NCBI RefSeq assembly: GCF_019970045.1 | Contig: NZ_JAHXYI010000009.1 | Span: 62,001-126,000, forward strand | Direction: 5' to 3' | DNA length: 64,000 nt | DNA from: Chryseobacterium sp. GVT01B | GTDB lineage: Bacteria > Bacteroidota > Bacteroidia > Flavobacteriales > Weeksellaceae | Shown: piece by piece, positions 3,759-56,845 of the stretch | How positions within the stretch are numbered: position 1 is the first letter of the stretch | Layout of the letters: each line of letters starts with the position of its first letter | Made by a program: the position numbers and the translations under genes | Notes under the pieces: model-generated | Databases searched by the model: none | Told to the model about the DNA's origin: nothing | What the model saw: the letters and a program-made list of their open reading frames with translations, nothing else

Positions 3759-3914
3759 TTATACGGCTATACAATATTGTCTTATACCAGCACAAACCCA
3801 TCCCGGGCAGCACTCTGTTTGTGGGCTAGTACAAAATATCTGTGGGTTACACCCTCTGATAGCACCTTGTACAGTTTTCATTTCCACTCTTGAAAGTTTT
3901 TTTGAATTTTTCAT
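3759..3914 (-). CDS. Bacteriocin-like double-glycine leader peptide with six-cysteine knottin-type core
   Basis: Encodes 51 residues. The leader MKNSKKLSRVEMKTVQGA (1-18) has the hydrophobic/charged pattern and G-A ending of double-glycine leaders that C39-peptidase ABC exporters cleave. The predicted core (19-51) has cysteines at 22, 28, 35, 36, 41 and 48: C-x5-C-x6-CC-x4-C-x6-C, the inhibitor-cystine-knot order, including CCPGWVC. A longer in-frame start at 4019 exists, but the 51-residue start is chosen because it aligns residue for residue with the second peptide gene at 56657 and because the shared upstream block (3939-3963) would otherwise be coding. No exporter, maturase or immunity gene is adjacent. 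The core sequence is not one I recognise; family membership of the leader is likely (Chryseobacterium bacteriocin-like leader), activity is inferred. Confidence 0.85.
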   Translation of the reverse strand: MKNSKKLSRVEMKTVQGAIRGCNPQIFCTSPQTECCPGWVCAGIRQYCIAV

Positions 3915-3938
3915 AATTATTTTGTTTAGTATTAATTT

Positions 3939-3963
3939 CCTACTCTTTAGATTTTCGGATACC
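3939..3963 (-). promoter_or_regulatory. Shared upstream block, copy A
   Basis: On the minus strand: GGTATCCGAAAA, a 5-base spacer, then AGAGTAGG, ending 24 bases before the leader peptide ATG at 3914. The same two words occur upstream of the genes at 4740 and 56657. A TATATTTA sequence resembling a -7 box lies further upstream (3992-3999, minus), which would place the block in the 5' untranslated RNA. Confidence 0.75.
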
Positions 3964-4108
3964 TCTTTAATTATTTCCTTTAATAGAGATTTAAATATAC
4001 ATATTCTTTTATTAATCAACTAATTAAATGCATAAAAATCTACATATCAGTGAAAACCCCATATAAAATACCGTGAAAACACGGATGGTATTTTTGTGGT
4101 ATTAGTTA

Positions 4109-4116
4109 TAAGTTTG
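4109..4116 (+). promoter_or_regulatory. -7 box of a short transcription unit
   Basis: TAAGTTTG, an exact TAnnTTTG match, followed about 200 bases later by a strong terminator (4319-4351). It would drive a transcript of roughly 230 bases covering 4122-4351. Confidence 0.45.
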
Positions 4117-4118
4117 CA

Positions 4119-4310
4119 ATGAGAATAAGGGGTAAAAACACTAAGAGAAACAAGATGATTGCAGGAGAGACACAAACTAACCATGAGAATCACAAAAAAG
4201 TTATGCTGAAAGGCACAACTGATTCTTCTGCAGCAAAAACTAAGAAAGAAATATCCACTTCATTTTTGCTACGAATTATTTCGCTCCTGAAAAAGGAAGA
4301 ATTAATTTGA
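4119..4310 (+). CDS. Uncertain small ORF (or untranslated small RNA) between promoter and terminator
   Basis: An open frame of 63 codons, strongly basic and polar (many K, N, T, E), ending ISLLKKEELI. The first ATG (4119) is only three bases after the -7 box, so translation from it would need a leaderless message; an internal ATG at 4152 giving 52 residues is more plausible. No recognisable domain, signal peptide or good ribosome site. A complete small unit exists (promoter 4109, terminator 4319), so the segment is probably transcribed; whether it is translated or acts as RNA is unresolved. Confidence 0.3.
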   Translation: MRIRGKNTKRNKMIAGETQTNHENHKKVMLKGTTDSSAAKTKKEISTSFLLRIISLLKKEELI

Positions 4311-4318
4311 TTAAAAAT

Positions 4319-4351
4319 AAATCCCGGCCACCTTCGGGATTTGTTTTTTTT
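4319..4351 (+). terminator. Terminator of the short unit
   Basis: AAATCCCG (4319-4326), 8-base loop, CGGGATTT (4335-4342), then a T run to 4351. The same AAATCCCG stem is reused at 6933-6956. Confidence 0.8.
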
Positions 4352-4644
4352 AAAGTCATCCTATTTCTATTTAAGCCACTTCAGTTATTCTATCTGATCT
4401 TCTGATCAAAACCTAATTCCATTCCGAAATTACGTTTTCCCAAACTTCAACTCAAAAAAACTTTTCTGAGTTCATCCAAAAAAATATTTCTTCCAAGCAT
4501 CAACAAAAACAGTCTGAATTAGCCTTGGACAGCCCGTTCTTTCGGGATTCTCATTCTTTACATTCTTTACATTTCAATCTTAACAGGGTAAAGTCCTTGT
4601 AAAAAAACAGGATAAACACTTATTCTTAAGCACTCACATAATTC

Positions 4645-4652
4645 TACATTTG
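4645..4652 (+). promoter_or_regulatory. -7 box for the gene at 4740
   Basis: TACATTTG matches TAnnTTTG exactly. It would start RNA near 4658, leaving a leader of about 80 bases that contains shared block B. Confidence 0.45.
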
Positions 4653-4690
4653 ATCTAAGTTTCTCGACCATGAAACACTCATACCAAGGA

Positions 4691-4720
4691 GGTATCCGAA
4701 AATCCTAAAAACAGAGTAGG
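4691..4720 (+). promoter_or_regulatory. Shared upstream block, copy B
   Basis: GGTATCCGAAAA (4691-4702), a 10-base spacer, AGAGTAGG (4713-4720), ending 19 bases before the ATG at 4740. The same two words precede both six-cysteine peptide genes, linking this otherwise unrelated exported-protein gene to them. Confidence 0.75.
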
Positions 4721-4739
4721 GATATTTTAAAACAACCAC

Positions 4740-5333
4740 ATGAAAACAAAGACTTTATTTTTAATTGGAGCAATAGTGGGAATTGTGATGATATTTTCCC
4801 AGCTAAAGCCTCAGGAAATGTCTTTTTATAAAGAAAAAGGCAATTACATTGTAGACAACAATTACATCCTTAAAGATGTCAAAAAAATTTCTGATGAAGA
4901 CATAAAGAGTTTACTAAGACTACAAAAACTCCATCAGAACAGTTTGGGTACCAATTTTATTATTTACAAAATCAACAGACAGTATATCATCCGCGGATGT
5001 TTAATGAAAGCGAATATTGACTGGAAAAAATATGGAGATCTGAGAGCTAAGGTAGATGGCATCCTGAAAAAATACGGAGCCAAAGAACTTGGAACAGATT
5101 ATTATGCCATTCAAAATAATCAGGTGGCCACTAATGTGGCATTGTTGACTCAGAAAGATATTGCATCTTTAGGTAAACTTACCATAAGAGGAGCTGAAGA
5201 ATACACGATCTGTCCGCCAACTATGGGAAGAAAGAATCTTACCAATGTGATTATAAAATCTTACAAAGTCAATACAGCTATTGATCCAAGAATCAATGTT
5301 AAGCTTAATAATGTATTGGTTAACTACAAATAA
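4740..5333 (+). CDS. Exported or membrane-anchored protein of unknown family, first gene of the HTTM locus
   Basis: A 197-residue protein. Residues 5-21 form one hydrophobic segment without a clear cleavage site, so it is either anchored in the inner membrane facing the periplasm or released. The remainder is soluble, lysine-rich and mixed alpha/beta by appearance, with two cysteines (C87 in RGCLMK, C158 in TICPP) that could form a disulfide after export. I do not recognise the family. Its start is fixed by the shared upstream block ending 19 bases before the ATG. A terminator (5339-5374) follows, then two genes in the same direction whose products resemble an SdpA/SdpB-like pair; by analogy it could be a toxin precursor or accessory factor, but this is speculation from context. 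Confidence 0.75.
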   Translation: MKTKTLFLIGAIVGIVMIFSQLKPQEMSFYKEKGNYIVDNNYILKDVKKISDEDIKSLLRLQKLHQNSLGTNFIIYKINRQYIIRGCLMKANIDWKKYGDLRAKVDGILKKYGAKELGTDYYAIQNNQVATNVALLTQKDIASLGKLTIRGAEEYTICPPTMGRKNLTNVIIKSYKVNTAIDPRINVKLNNVLVNYK

Positions 5334-5338
5334 CCGTT

Positions 5339-5374
5339 AAAGGCTGTTTTTGTTCTGAAGGCAGCCTTTTTTTT
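5339..5374 (+). terminator. Terminator or attenuator between the genes at 4740 and 5387
   Basis: AAAGGCTG (5339-5346) pairs with CAGCCTTT (5362-5369), followed by T residues to 5374. The next start codon is only 13 bases further on, leaving no room for a promoter, so genes downstream must depend on read-through or on a promoter inside the gene at 4740. Confidence 0.75.
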
Positions 5375-5386
5375 AAATCTTTTGTC

Positions 5387-5959
5387 ATGAAAAAAAAGCT
5401 TCAGTTATCGGGAATTTTTATTGTTCTTTTGATCGTATTTACAATAGGCATGAAGGGAACATTTGATGGCTACTACGGTTTTTATTATGAAAACAAGAAT
5501 TATGATAAACCTCTGGCGTATGTGATATCAGAGAATATTGCCCAATCAAAACCTATCAATATGCTTACTTCTTATACCGGTTTTGATACAGGATATGGTT
5601 TTTATGCACCGAATGTTGCCAGTGACTTTGTGATGAGCTTTGAAATGAAAGATAAAAATGGAAATATCTTAGAACAAAAGAATATGCCTTATTTCAAAAG
5701 TAAGGAAAGCAGAGTGAGATATACTACCGTCTTCAATATGTTTCTGGATAAAATTTCCGACAAGAACACTTATGACCGCAAATATTATCAGTATCTGGAC
5801 ATTATTATCAAACAGATTGCAACACATGTGATGAAAGAAAATCCAAAAGCATCAAGTGTTACGACAAAACTTTATCTGTACGACTACCCCACCATTGCAG
5901 ATTTCAAACAGGGAAGAACGAATGAAAATCTTATTCTTATTGATGAATTCAAACATTAA
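5387..5959 (+). CDS. Membrane-anchored protein partner of the HTTM protein (SdpA-like position)
   Basis: A 190-residue protein with one hydrophobic segment near 7-24 followed by a soluble domain containing YTGFDTGYGFYAPNVAS near 62-78, then many aromatic and lysine residues. Proteins with this kind of domain sit beside HTTM membrane proteins in other flavobacteria; the arrangement (small single-anchor protein followed by HTTM protein) parallels SdpA-SdpB of Bacillus subtilis, which are needed to mature the SDP peptide toxin. I see no direct sequence identity to SdpA that I could cite. It ends four bases before the HTTM start, so the two are translationally close. Confidence 0.7.
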   Translation: MKKKLQLSGIFIVLLIVFTIGMKGTFDGYYGFYYENKNYDKPLAYVISENIAQSKPINMLTSYTGFDTGYGFYAPNVASDFVMSFEMKDKNGNILEQKNMPYFKSKESRVRYTTVFNMFLDKISDKNTYDRKYYQYLDIIIKQIATHVMKENPKASSVTTKLYLYDYPTIADFKQGRTNENLILIDEFKH

Positions 5960-5963
5960 AGTG

Positions 5964-6926
5964 ATGAAAAAGCTAGATGTACTTTATACCAAAATTGAAA
6001 ACTTCTTTTTCAAACAGGATAATCAAACGGAATTCTTAAGCTTCTTCCGCGTTGCTATAGGAAGTGTTATCCTTCTACAATTTATCGCAGTGATACCGGA
6101 TTTTGACAAATTATTTTCAAGCAGCAGTATCATTCCACAGGATATTATGAGTGTTTTCACGCCCGACTGGCTGATTACTTTCTCAAAAATCGTCACCTTT
6201 TTACAGGGTTTCGGTATTGAAGAAAGCACAACAATTATAATGACCAAAATATCATTTATTACGTTGTGTATTTTGATTATTACCGGATTTTATTCCAGAG
6301 TTTCTGCACTTCTTTTACTTATACTGCAGATTGCATTACTCAAGGGTAGTTCTTTCTTTGCGTATGGTGCAGACTTTTTCACAAGCATGTCTTTATTTTA
6401 TCTGATCCTATTCCCTTCAGATCAATATTTTTCACTCAGGAATTTTATTTTCAACAGAAAACCACGGGAAATAAATATCACACCTGCCAAAAGGTTATTT
6501 CAGATTCACATTTCTATTGCTTATTTCTTTTCCGGACTGGATAAAGCTTTAGGTTTCAACTGGTGGAACGGCGAATCCATCTGGAAAGCCATTCATCTAC
6601 CCTATTCCAACAGAGATCTGAATTTTGATTTCAGTTGGCTTATAGAACATTCTTATGTCTTAAGCTTTATTGGGTGGAGTACGATTATCATTGAGATGTG
6701 CTATCCGTTTTTCATCTGGTACAAACCGACTCAGAAGACATGGCTGTTTCTAACTGTTTCTATGCATCTGGGAATTGCACTCGTTCTCAATTTATATTAC
6801 TTTTCAGCCATTATGATCGTATGGAATATCACCAATTTTTATTTTGAGCAAACCGCTAAAAAAGCAGTTCCTTCATCAAAGAAGAAAATATCAACTCAAT
6901 ATATTCCAAAACAGATTAACTCATAA
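5964..6926 (+). CDS. HTTM-domain membrane protein (SdpB / vitamin K carboxylase-like superfamily)
   Basis: A 320-residue polytopic protein using the ATG at 5964 (a GTG at 5961 is also possible); an upstream in-frame extension to 5856 is rejected because it would overlap the previous gene by over 100 bases. Multiple membrane segments are visible near 26-45, 95-125, 135-152, 180-192, 231-252 and 258-292. Landmarks of the HTTM fold: FRVAIGSVILLQF near 28-40, the HISIAYFFSGLDKALGFNWWNG block at 182-203, and a conserved histidine in SMHLGIALVLN near 268. HTTM proteins include SdpB, required for SDP toxin production, and gamma-carboxylase. A catalytic role in peptide maturation is inferred from family and from the shared 5' element upstream of this locus. 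Confidence 0.8.
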   Translation: MKKLDVLYTKIENFFFKQDNQTEFLSFFRVAIGSVILLQFIAVIPDFDKLFSSSSIIPQDIMSVFTPDWLITFSKIVTFLQGFGIEESTTIIMTKISFITLCILIITGFYSRVSALLLLILQIALLKGSSFFAYGADFFTSMSLFYLILFPSDQYFSLRNFIFNRKPREINITPAKRLFQIHISIAYFFSGLDKALGFNWWNGESIWKAIHLPYSNRDLNFDFSWLIEHSYVLSFIGWSTIIIEMCYPFFIWYKPTQKTWLFLTVSMHLGIALVLNLYYFSAIMIVWNITNFYFEQTAKKAVPSSKKKISTQYIPKQINS

Positions 6927-56595: not shown

Positions 56596-56610
56596 GAAAT
56601 ACATAATTGC

Positions 56611-56636
56611 GGTATCCGAAAAGCATATAGAGTAGG
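56611..56636 (+). promoter_or_regulatory. Shared upstream block, copy C
   Basis: GGTATCCGAAAA (56611-56622), 6-base spacer, AGAGTAGG (56629-56636), ending 20 bases before the ATG at 56657. Third copy of the block found before the genes at 3914 and 4740. Confidence 0.75.
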
Positions 56637-56656
56637 AAAAAACTAAAACTAAAACC

Positions 56657-56845
56657 ATGAAAAATTTAAAAAAAGTCTCAAGAAATGAGCTAAGAACCAT
56701 CAAAGGAGGATACAGAAGCTGTATAGACGGCTGTAGCATGGAGCTCGGAGAAATGTGTTGCAGCGGTGTATGCAGAATTGGAGTAATTATTCCTAGTACC
56801 GACCCTAATCTGCCTGACCTTATGGTATGCCCTAAAAAACCTTAG
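56657..56845 (+). CDS. Bacteriocin-like double-glycine leader peptide with six-cysteine knottin-type core (second gene)
   Basis: Encodes 62 residues. The leader MKNLKKVSRNELRTIKGG (1-18) is a textbook double-glycine leader; 10 of 18 positions are identical to the peptide at 3759. The core begins YRSC (the other has IRGC) and has cysteines at 22, 26, 34, 35, 39 and 58: C-x3-C-x7-CC-x3-C-x18-C, again in C-C-CC-C-C order and with MCCSGVC. The last loop is much longer and Pro/Asp-rich (PSTDPNLPDLM). Cleavage after GG would release 44 residues. It has its own terminator (56858) and sits between the M4 peptidase and the ribosomal operon. No exporter or maturase is adjacent. Confidence 0.88.
   Translation: MKNLKKVSRNELRTIKGGYRSCIDGCSMELGEMCCSGVCRIGVIIPSTDPNLPDLMVCPKKP

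Follow-up and report, generated by a model that had tools for sequence, protein, structure and literature searches.

A block of two short words is repeated upstream of three genes in the stretch of DNA analysed here (the window, 64,000 nucleotides of Chryseobacterium sp. GVT01B), which raises the question of what kind of signal it is and on which step of gene expression it acts. The pattern GGTATCCGAAAA-N(2-16)-GAGTAGG gave three exact matches in the window and none in 100 dinucleotide shuffles. As read from the sequence, the two words always stand in the same order, 5, 10 and 6 bases apart in copies 1, 2 and 3, and the distances described in an earlier note on this stretch, 24, 19 and 20 nt from the end of each copy to the ATG, were confirmed. 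No fourth copy was found in the window, either with the exact pattern or with the RF02914 model at the Rfam cut-off. The three copies and the genes behind them are the following:

3937..3968, minus strand: copy 1, DUF805b RNA (exact words 3939-3963; RF02914, 43.7 bits)
3759..3914, minus strand: CCPGW-family putative bacteriocin peptide, 51 aa (NF047792, 97.9 bits, cut-off 80; NF047798 leader_Chryseo, 35.3 bits, cut-off 23.5)
4686..4722, plus strand: copy 2, DUF805b RNA (exact words 4691-4720; RF02914, 48.2 bits)
4740..5333, plus strand: 197-aa protein, first gene behind copy 2 (ORF)
5387..5959, plus strand: 190-aa protein, second gene behind copy 2 (ORF)
5964..6926, plus strand: HTTM / SdpB-like membrane protein, third gene (HTTM, E 1e-5, 25.7 bits, cut-off 27.7)
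56606..56638, plus strand: copy 3, DUF805b RNA (exact words 56611-56636; RF02914, 40.9 bits)
56657..56845, plus strand: bacteriocin-like peptide, 62 aa, with a leader of the double-glycine type (NF047798, 37.6 bits, cut-off 23.5)

All three copies exceed the gathering score (35.6 bits) of RF02914, the DUF805b RNA, which is labelled "Cis-reg", and these are the only matches of the whole window at Rfam gathering scores. They are full-length matches (1-35), copies 1 and 3 each having a single non-standard pair among the four of P1, and they display the traits of RF02914, i.e., a hairpin P1 followed by the AGAGUAGG tail, upstream of a coding sequence. Hence, the window block is a member of a catalogued RNA family and not a new element. 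A 2017 report of 224 candidate RNAs is the likely source of the DUF805b motif. No function of DUF805b or DUF805 RNA was found in the literature searched, and the element is not mentioned in the available passages of the F. psychrophilum and B. thetaiotaomicron transcriptome papers.

The genome itself (5.15 Mb, 38 contigs) contains 18 RF02914 copies with E <= 5e-5, the next E-value being 0.14. Among these copies, 11 exceed the Rfam cut-off and two also exceed that of RF03081 (DUF805). The genome-wide search for the word pair, which the earlier note had suggested, returned four exact occurrences, the three of the window and one further copy elsewhere, and the reversed pattern returned none. The copies are not scattered at random positions but tied to gene starts, all 18 lying 19-26 nt before an ORF. 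Rfam searches on 12 loci (L001 and 11 exact-word loci) reached a cut-off at nine of them, L012, L018 and L033 remaining below. Besides, further genomes of the genus (G282, G227, G234) contain the core of copy 3 without a single changed letter. A -7-like box had also been noticed further upstream of each window copy. It is loosely present, as an exact TAnnTTTG (TACATTTG) at site 2 and as TATATTTA at sites 1 and 3, without a fixed distance. Over 295 sites, the 60 nt adjoining the element contain 28 exact TAnnTTTG and the next 60 nt contain 11 (summed bins), a loose enrichment without constant distance, and a fixed -7 box upstream of the element was therefore rejected.

The printed Rfam model structure shows the hairpin only. 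It lacks a second helix, in which the loop letters N-C-Y pair with R-G-N' of the tail, making the element an H-type pseudoknot. In copies 1 and 3, the letters read from the sequence are UCC with GGA. The parts of copy 2 are the following:

4687..4706, plus strand: stem P1, 4687-4690 with 4703-4706 (sequence and Rfam alignment)
4695..4697, plus strand: pseudoknot 5' strand UCC, pairing with 4719-4721 (GGG, one G-U; column covariation over many copies)
4698..4700, plus strand: GAA, proposed half of a sarcin-ricin/loop E motif (conserved in CM-located copies)
4715..4718, plus strand: AGUA, proposed other half of the motif (conserved in CM-located copies)
4719..4721, plus strand: pseudoknot 3' strand (covariation)

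The pairing was assessed on 383 unique sites collected with a pattern that left the tested positions free, 358 of them with an ORF 8-44 nt downstream. The exact-word contig scan contributed 132 of the 383 sites (119 of the 358), among the matches listed, with C-G at Y-R and T at N preset; because of these preset letters, the fair count of pairing is that of the other 239 sites. The loci from the RF02914 and RF03081 genome scans were the best-scoring among the matches listed and, since the Rfam models treat the pseudoknot columns as unpaired, the pairing is not a product of the search. At Y-R, 237 of the 239 sites were counted as paired (C-G 186, T-A 33, T-G 18, C-A 2), compared with a mean of 211.5 and a highest value of 219 in 2000 shuffles. 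At N-N', 187 sites were paired (T-A 86, G-C 65, C-G 22, A-T 8, T-G 4, G-T 2), compared with a mean of 91.3 and a highest value of 112. The 52 sites unpaired at N-N' belong mostly to the form with a 3-nt L1, where A-A prevails and two pairs remain, and in the common form, with a 4-nt L1, N-N' is paired in 166 of 172 sites. With the model-found loci alone (184 sites), 182 sites were paired at Y-R and 133 at N-N' (highest shuffles 172 and 81). In the own genome, the loop base that follows C varies in step with the tail base: CCGAAAA is combined with tails of the GAGTAGG type, and CTGAAAA stands in the four copies with GAGTAAG.

Covariance analysis of aligned copies, also suggested earlier, was carried out on 130 loci drawn at random from the 203 eligible ones (125 distinct rows), none from the exact-word scan, eligible meaning one site per locus, an ORF present, a gap of 4 or 5 and an L3 of up to 13. 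The three pseudoknot pairs gave 71 double-change cells versus 20.4 +/- 3.4 in shuffles, and none of 500 shuffles was as high, although this is not to be read as a probability, the rows being related by descent. Sliding the pairing by 1-3 columns left 0-35 double-change cells, and P1 and the pseudoknot together gave 142 versus 39.3. The middle C-G pair, preset by the site finder, is invariant and hence provides no evidence. A fourth pseudoknot pair was considered and rejected, the next position outward being at chance (47 versus 45.8). Such strong covariation between loop and tail indicates that the block works as RNA and not as a promoter.

The letters GAA and AGUA flank the pseudoknot helix on opposite strands, in the register of the sarcin-ricin/loop E motif, the consensus of which is 5'-AGUA-3' / 5'-GAA-3'. 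Both were kept in 121 of 123 CM-located copies, one row being empty and one carrying CCAAAAA, with the reservation that the CM too favours consensus letters; these copies comprised the 18 of the own genome, 29 loci from the phylum-wide RF02914 scan and 76 of 80 further regions. In the set of the site finder, GAAAA and AGTA were preset and their invariance is therefore partly imposed. From the letters and their register, GAA and AGUA probably form a sarcin-ricin/loop E fold stacked on the pseudoknot helix.

The position of the element relative to the start codon is nearly fixed. A first ATG-ORF was found 17-29 nt downstream at 338 of the 383 sites, compared with 590 of 7620 random positions in the same loci, and the knot ends at a median of 22 nt before the ATG. 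This usual distance leaves no room for a terminator. In F. johnsoniae, initiation proceeds without a Shine-Dalgarno signal in a region of low mRNA structure from -20 to +20, with A at -3 and -6 being favourable and -12 and -13 also discussed (PMC6847099). In our set, 61 of 358 sites lie less than 20 nt from the ATG, window copy 2 (19 nt) among them, so that some knots reach into the low-structure zone. G is scarce in the spacer, and A stands at -3, -6, -12 and -13 in 75, 57, 79 and 74% of cases, versus 47, 42, 51 and 44% in the 754 remaining long ORFs of these loci, a background in which starts are the ATGs of the longest ORFs, some of them surely wrong. In the 50 long ORFs of the window, the values are 32, 36, 60 and 62%, a smaller contrast at -12 and -13. 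Since the knot usually lies at the edge of the low-structure start region and a terminator would not fit in between, the simplest reading is that translation initiation is controlled.

Nine of the 18 targets in this genome are short bacteriocin-like leader peptides, seven over the NF047798 cut-off and two just below it. The others are the 197-aa first gene of the HTTM operon, a caspase-domain protein and the adjoining trypsin-like protein, a phage tail-collar-domain protein, a PixA inclusion-body protein, a DUF308 membrane protein, a DUF6520 protein and two proteins without a Pfam match. The caspase-domain and trypsin-like genes stand side by side at C11:251951-252901 (L122, L126), each with its own DUF805b element, and such a pair recurs together at six other loci. 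The CCPGW peptide (3762-3914, minus strand) also scores 21.9 against the Pfam Toxin_12 cut-off of 21, which probably reflects a likeness of the cysteine pattern. The order 197-aa protein, 190-aa protein, HTTM protein recurs at loci L020, L236 and L265, and the 197-aa protein has a 98.5% identical counterpart at a C. rhizoplanae locus. The element is kept before relatives of the operon in two genomes of another family of the same taxonomic order (L236, L265), where the first protein is 33-34% identical. The operon at 4740-6926 could be an SDP-like peptide toxin system, with weak scores for the third protein against the HTTM model and against the SdpB model (19.9 bits, cut-off 178.4).

The earlier note had tied the peptides to the HTTM locus as one regulon. 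Indeed, both peptide genes of the window and the HTTM operon carry the element, which makes them candidates for common control. The set is, however, far wider, with 18 sites in the genome and others in many Bacteroidota genera and in phage contigs, and it takes in a fraction of the peptides only. According to compared coordinates, seven of the 29 leader hits over the NF047798 cut-off in the genome have the element and 22 do not, which rules out a single regulon of all bacteriocin-like peptides and splits the peptide family between at least two control regimes. Inspection by eye of the upstream stretches listed (24 rows for 30 loci, five with the element) revealed no similar element in the 19 others.

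Beyond this genome, a search of the family set with a stricter pattern gave matches in 156 of 296 genomes, the reversed-pattern control being zero among the rows listed. At E 5e-5, RF02914 matched 104 of the 395 genomes searched across the phylum, in 54 of 170 genera; 76 of the 104 were over the cut-off, and none of the 14 controls gave a match. When E was relaxed to 10, all 14 control genomes gave matches, none over the cut-off. At E 1e-5, RF03081 matched 131 of the 395 genomes searched from the class, the cut-off being exceeded in 109; a single control genome of the 14, a Bacteroides, also gave a match. The downstream proteins were examined in two scans, for each of which the 25 most-matched families were listed. 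The first covered 150 proteins, i.e., 149 non-redundant ones out of 156 (seven close repeats dropped) plus one. Its Pfam matches included tail-collar (10), Trypsin_2 (7), DUF6345 (6), PixA, caspase and DUF6520 (5 each), DUF2589 (4) and DUF805 (3), and its NCBIfam matches included 20 leader_Chryseo. The second covered 117 of 188 proteins, 73 from DUF805-model loci and the rest chosen from the exact-word set, and yielded nine T9SS sorting domains and seven bacteriorhodopsins. A cluster of 10 proteins behind DUF805b elements reads as rhodopsin (L208, L007, L009, L026, L035, L055 and others). Besides, two DUF805b elements stand in direct tandem before one gene at L108 and L120.

The element also occurs in phage contigs. 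Two exact patterns matched 10 and 60 contigs of IMG/VR (L416-L425 and L456-L515), and three other exact-word viral scans gave no matches, bearing in mind that exact words can miss real copies. In total, 71 sites were located in 69 of these 70 contigs, 67 of them with an ORF, at a distance of 18-27 nt for 58 sites, 34-35 nt for eight and 14 nt for one. As the search pattern preset the pairing at the viral sites, they provide no test of the pseudoknot. Thirty of the 67 sites precede one protein family, the scanned member of which is ParB-like; other viral targets are a DNA methyltransferase, a DNA-binding protein and a few peptides resembling double-glycine leaders by eye. Some of the IMG/VR contigs that carry the element may be prophages.

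Taken together, covariation and the nearly fixed distance to the ATG support the view, already held in the earlier note, of an element of the 5' untranslated RNA (a regulator site, an RNA switch or a translation signal), and translation is the step that it most likely controls. The best explanation, to which we give good though not full confidence, is a DUF805b pseudoknot RNA predicted to act on translation initiation from within the 5' UTR. The block would be transcribed as part of the 5' UTR of these genes. Hairpin P1 (3-4 bp) would form, its loop N-C-Y would pair with R-G-N' of the GAGUARGN' tail, and the conserved loop GAA and tail AGUA would stack on the pseudoknot helix and probably adopt a sarcin-ricin/loop E fold. 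The end of the knot lies at the edge of the ribosome-landing zone, at the median of 22 nt before the start, and formation of the knot, or binding to it, would change the access of the 30S subunit to the unstructured, adenine-rich start region. A trans-acting ligand, either a metabolite or an RNA-binding protein, would set the state of the knot and could switch translation either on or off. The targets (putative antagonism peptides, lectin-like and inclusion proteins, a caspase, a rhodopsin) do not point to a metabolite, and the case for one is weakened because they share no single pathway.

How the knot would be read is the point on which several explanations compete. It might be a constitutive element of translation or stability, always folded and without ligand, shielding the 5' end or docking on the 30S platform, the docking then substituting for the Shine-Dalgarno signal that is unused in the phylum. 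The diversity of the targets, without a common pathway among the families listed, the adenine-rich start context and its position in phage contigs ahead of genes for ParB-like, methyltransferase and DNA-binding proteins would fit such an element. It would, however, be expected at many genes, and the genome has 18 sites only; moreover, 291 of 395 genomes have no RF02914 match at E 5e-5 under strict filters, which makes this explanation possible but rather unlikely. The knot and its loop E-like surface may instead be the binding site of an RNA-binding protein acting as translational repressor or activator. Loop E / sarcin-ricin surfaces are common protein sites, and the many unlinked targets and the two-element forms, in tandem (L108, L120) or in the DUF805 layout, are consistent with such a protein, but no regulator family appears among the 25 most-matched families listed for either target set, and this reading, too, is possible but rather unlikely. 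Somewhat more doubtful is a small-molecule riboswitch of about 35 nt, similar in size to preQ1-I. Indeed, a short H-type pseudoknot with conserved unpaired bases would suit it, but metabolic proteins are not among the most-matched targets: the families listed contain phosphatidylserine decarboxylase (in 2 of 117 proteins) and a carbonic anhydrase (in 1 of 150), yet no recurring set for biosynthesis or transport. In addition, no Rfam riboswitch family matched positions 3900-4760 at E up to 10.

Two further explanations do without the folded knot. The conserved words look single-stranded and could be a pairing site for a trans-encoded small RNA, such RNAs being present in Bacteroidota (PMC7366714); a trans partner would not cause loop and tail to covary within each copy, and this explanation is very improbable. 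Conserved words upstream of several genes might also be promoter elements of an alternative sigma factor, as the earlier note had considered, or the site of a DNA-binding regulator, to which we assign a negligible probability. The promoter reading was rejected on three observations: the stretch from P1 to the 3' strand of the pseudoknot varies from 6 to 18 nt and so lacks the fixed spacing of promoter boxes, loop and tail covary as RNA pairs including G-U, and the distance is nearly fixed to the ATG and not to a box. Returning to the pseudoknot acting on translation initiation, it is conceivable, though we consider it unlikely as a whole, that it represents a Bacteroidota-wide mode of translation control, in which a loop E pseudoknot at the edge of the 30S landing zone would be recognised by a single host factor or by the platform of the ribosome itself; hosts would employ it for antagonism-type genes and their phages for replication genes.

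DUF805b and DUF805 RNAs are widespread in Bacteroidota, and the structural model accounts for their conserved letters. The additions made here are the pseudoknot, compared with the printed Rfam structure, the interpretation of GAA and AGUA as a loop E motif, the list of targets and the occurrence in phage contigs. With a structure, a position relative to the ribosome, 18 targets and a link to phages, an orphan motif becomes a testable translation element, in a phylum whose rules of translation start are still being worked out. The element also offers a way into part of the large set of bacteriocin-like peptides that this genome encodes.

Among known RNA systems, the T-box shares with the element the loop E (sarcin-ricin) motif, a likeness that is local only, AGUA standing opposite GAA as in the consensus, and no T-box match was obtained at E up to 10 in 3900-4760, which contains copies 1 and 2. 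The preQ1-I riboswitch is an H-type pseudoknot of about 35 nt next to the start region. The comparison concerns the way of working only: preQ1-I gave no CM match at E up to 10 in the same interval, and no queuosine-type genes appear among the 25 most-matched target families listed per scan. The closest relatives are the two Rfam families themselves. RF02914 (clan CL00115) differs from the present model by the loop-tail pseudoknot, which was added in this analysis. The 3' half of RF03081 (DUF805) is the same module with the same tail, ending at a median of 20 nt before the ATG versus 22 nt for DUF805b, but DUF805 has a second hairpin upstream. The window copies do not have this 68-nt two-hairpin form, copies 1 and 3 scoring 24.6 and 22.9 bits versus 51.1 and copy 2 being unlisted at E <= 10. 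The upstream hairpin likely has a loop-tail pairing of its own: in 98 rows, loop Y versus the ACG-R-G tail gave C-G 58, T-G 7, T-A 5, C-A 0 and 3 others, the remaining 25 rows being without the tail pattern, many of them like chance hairpins, with L397 (ACAGGG) as a true-looking one. From these few changes, DUF805 may be two knots in a row.
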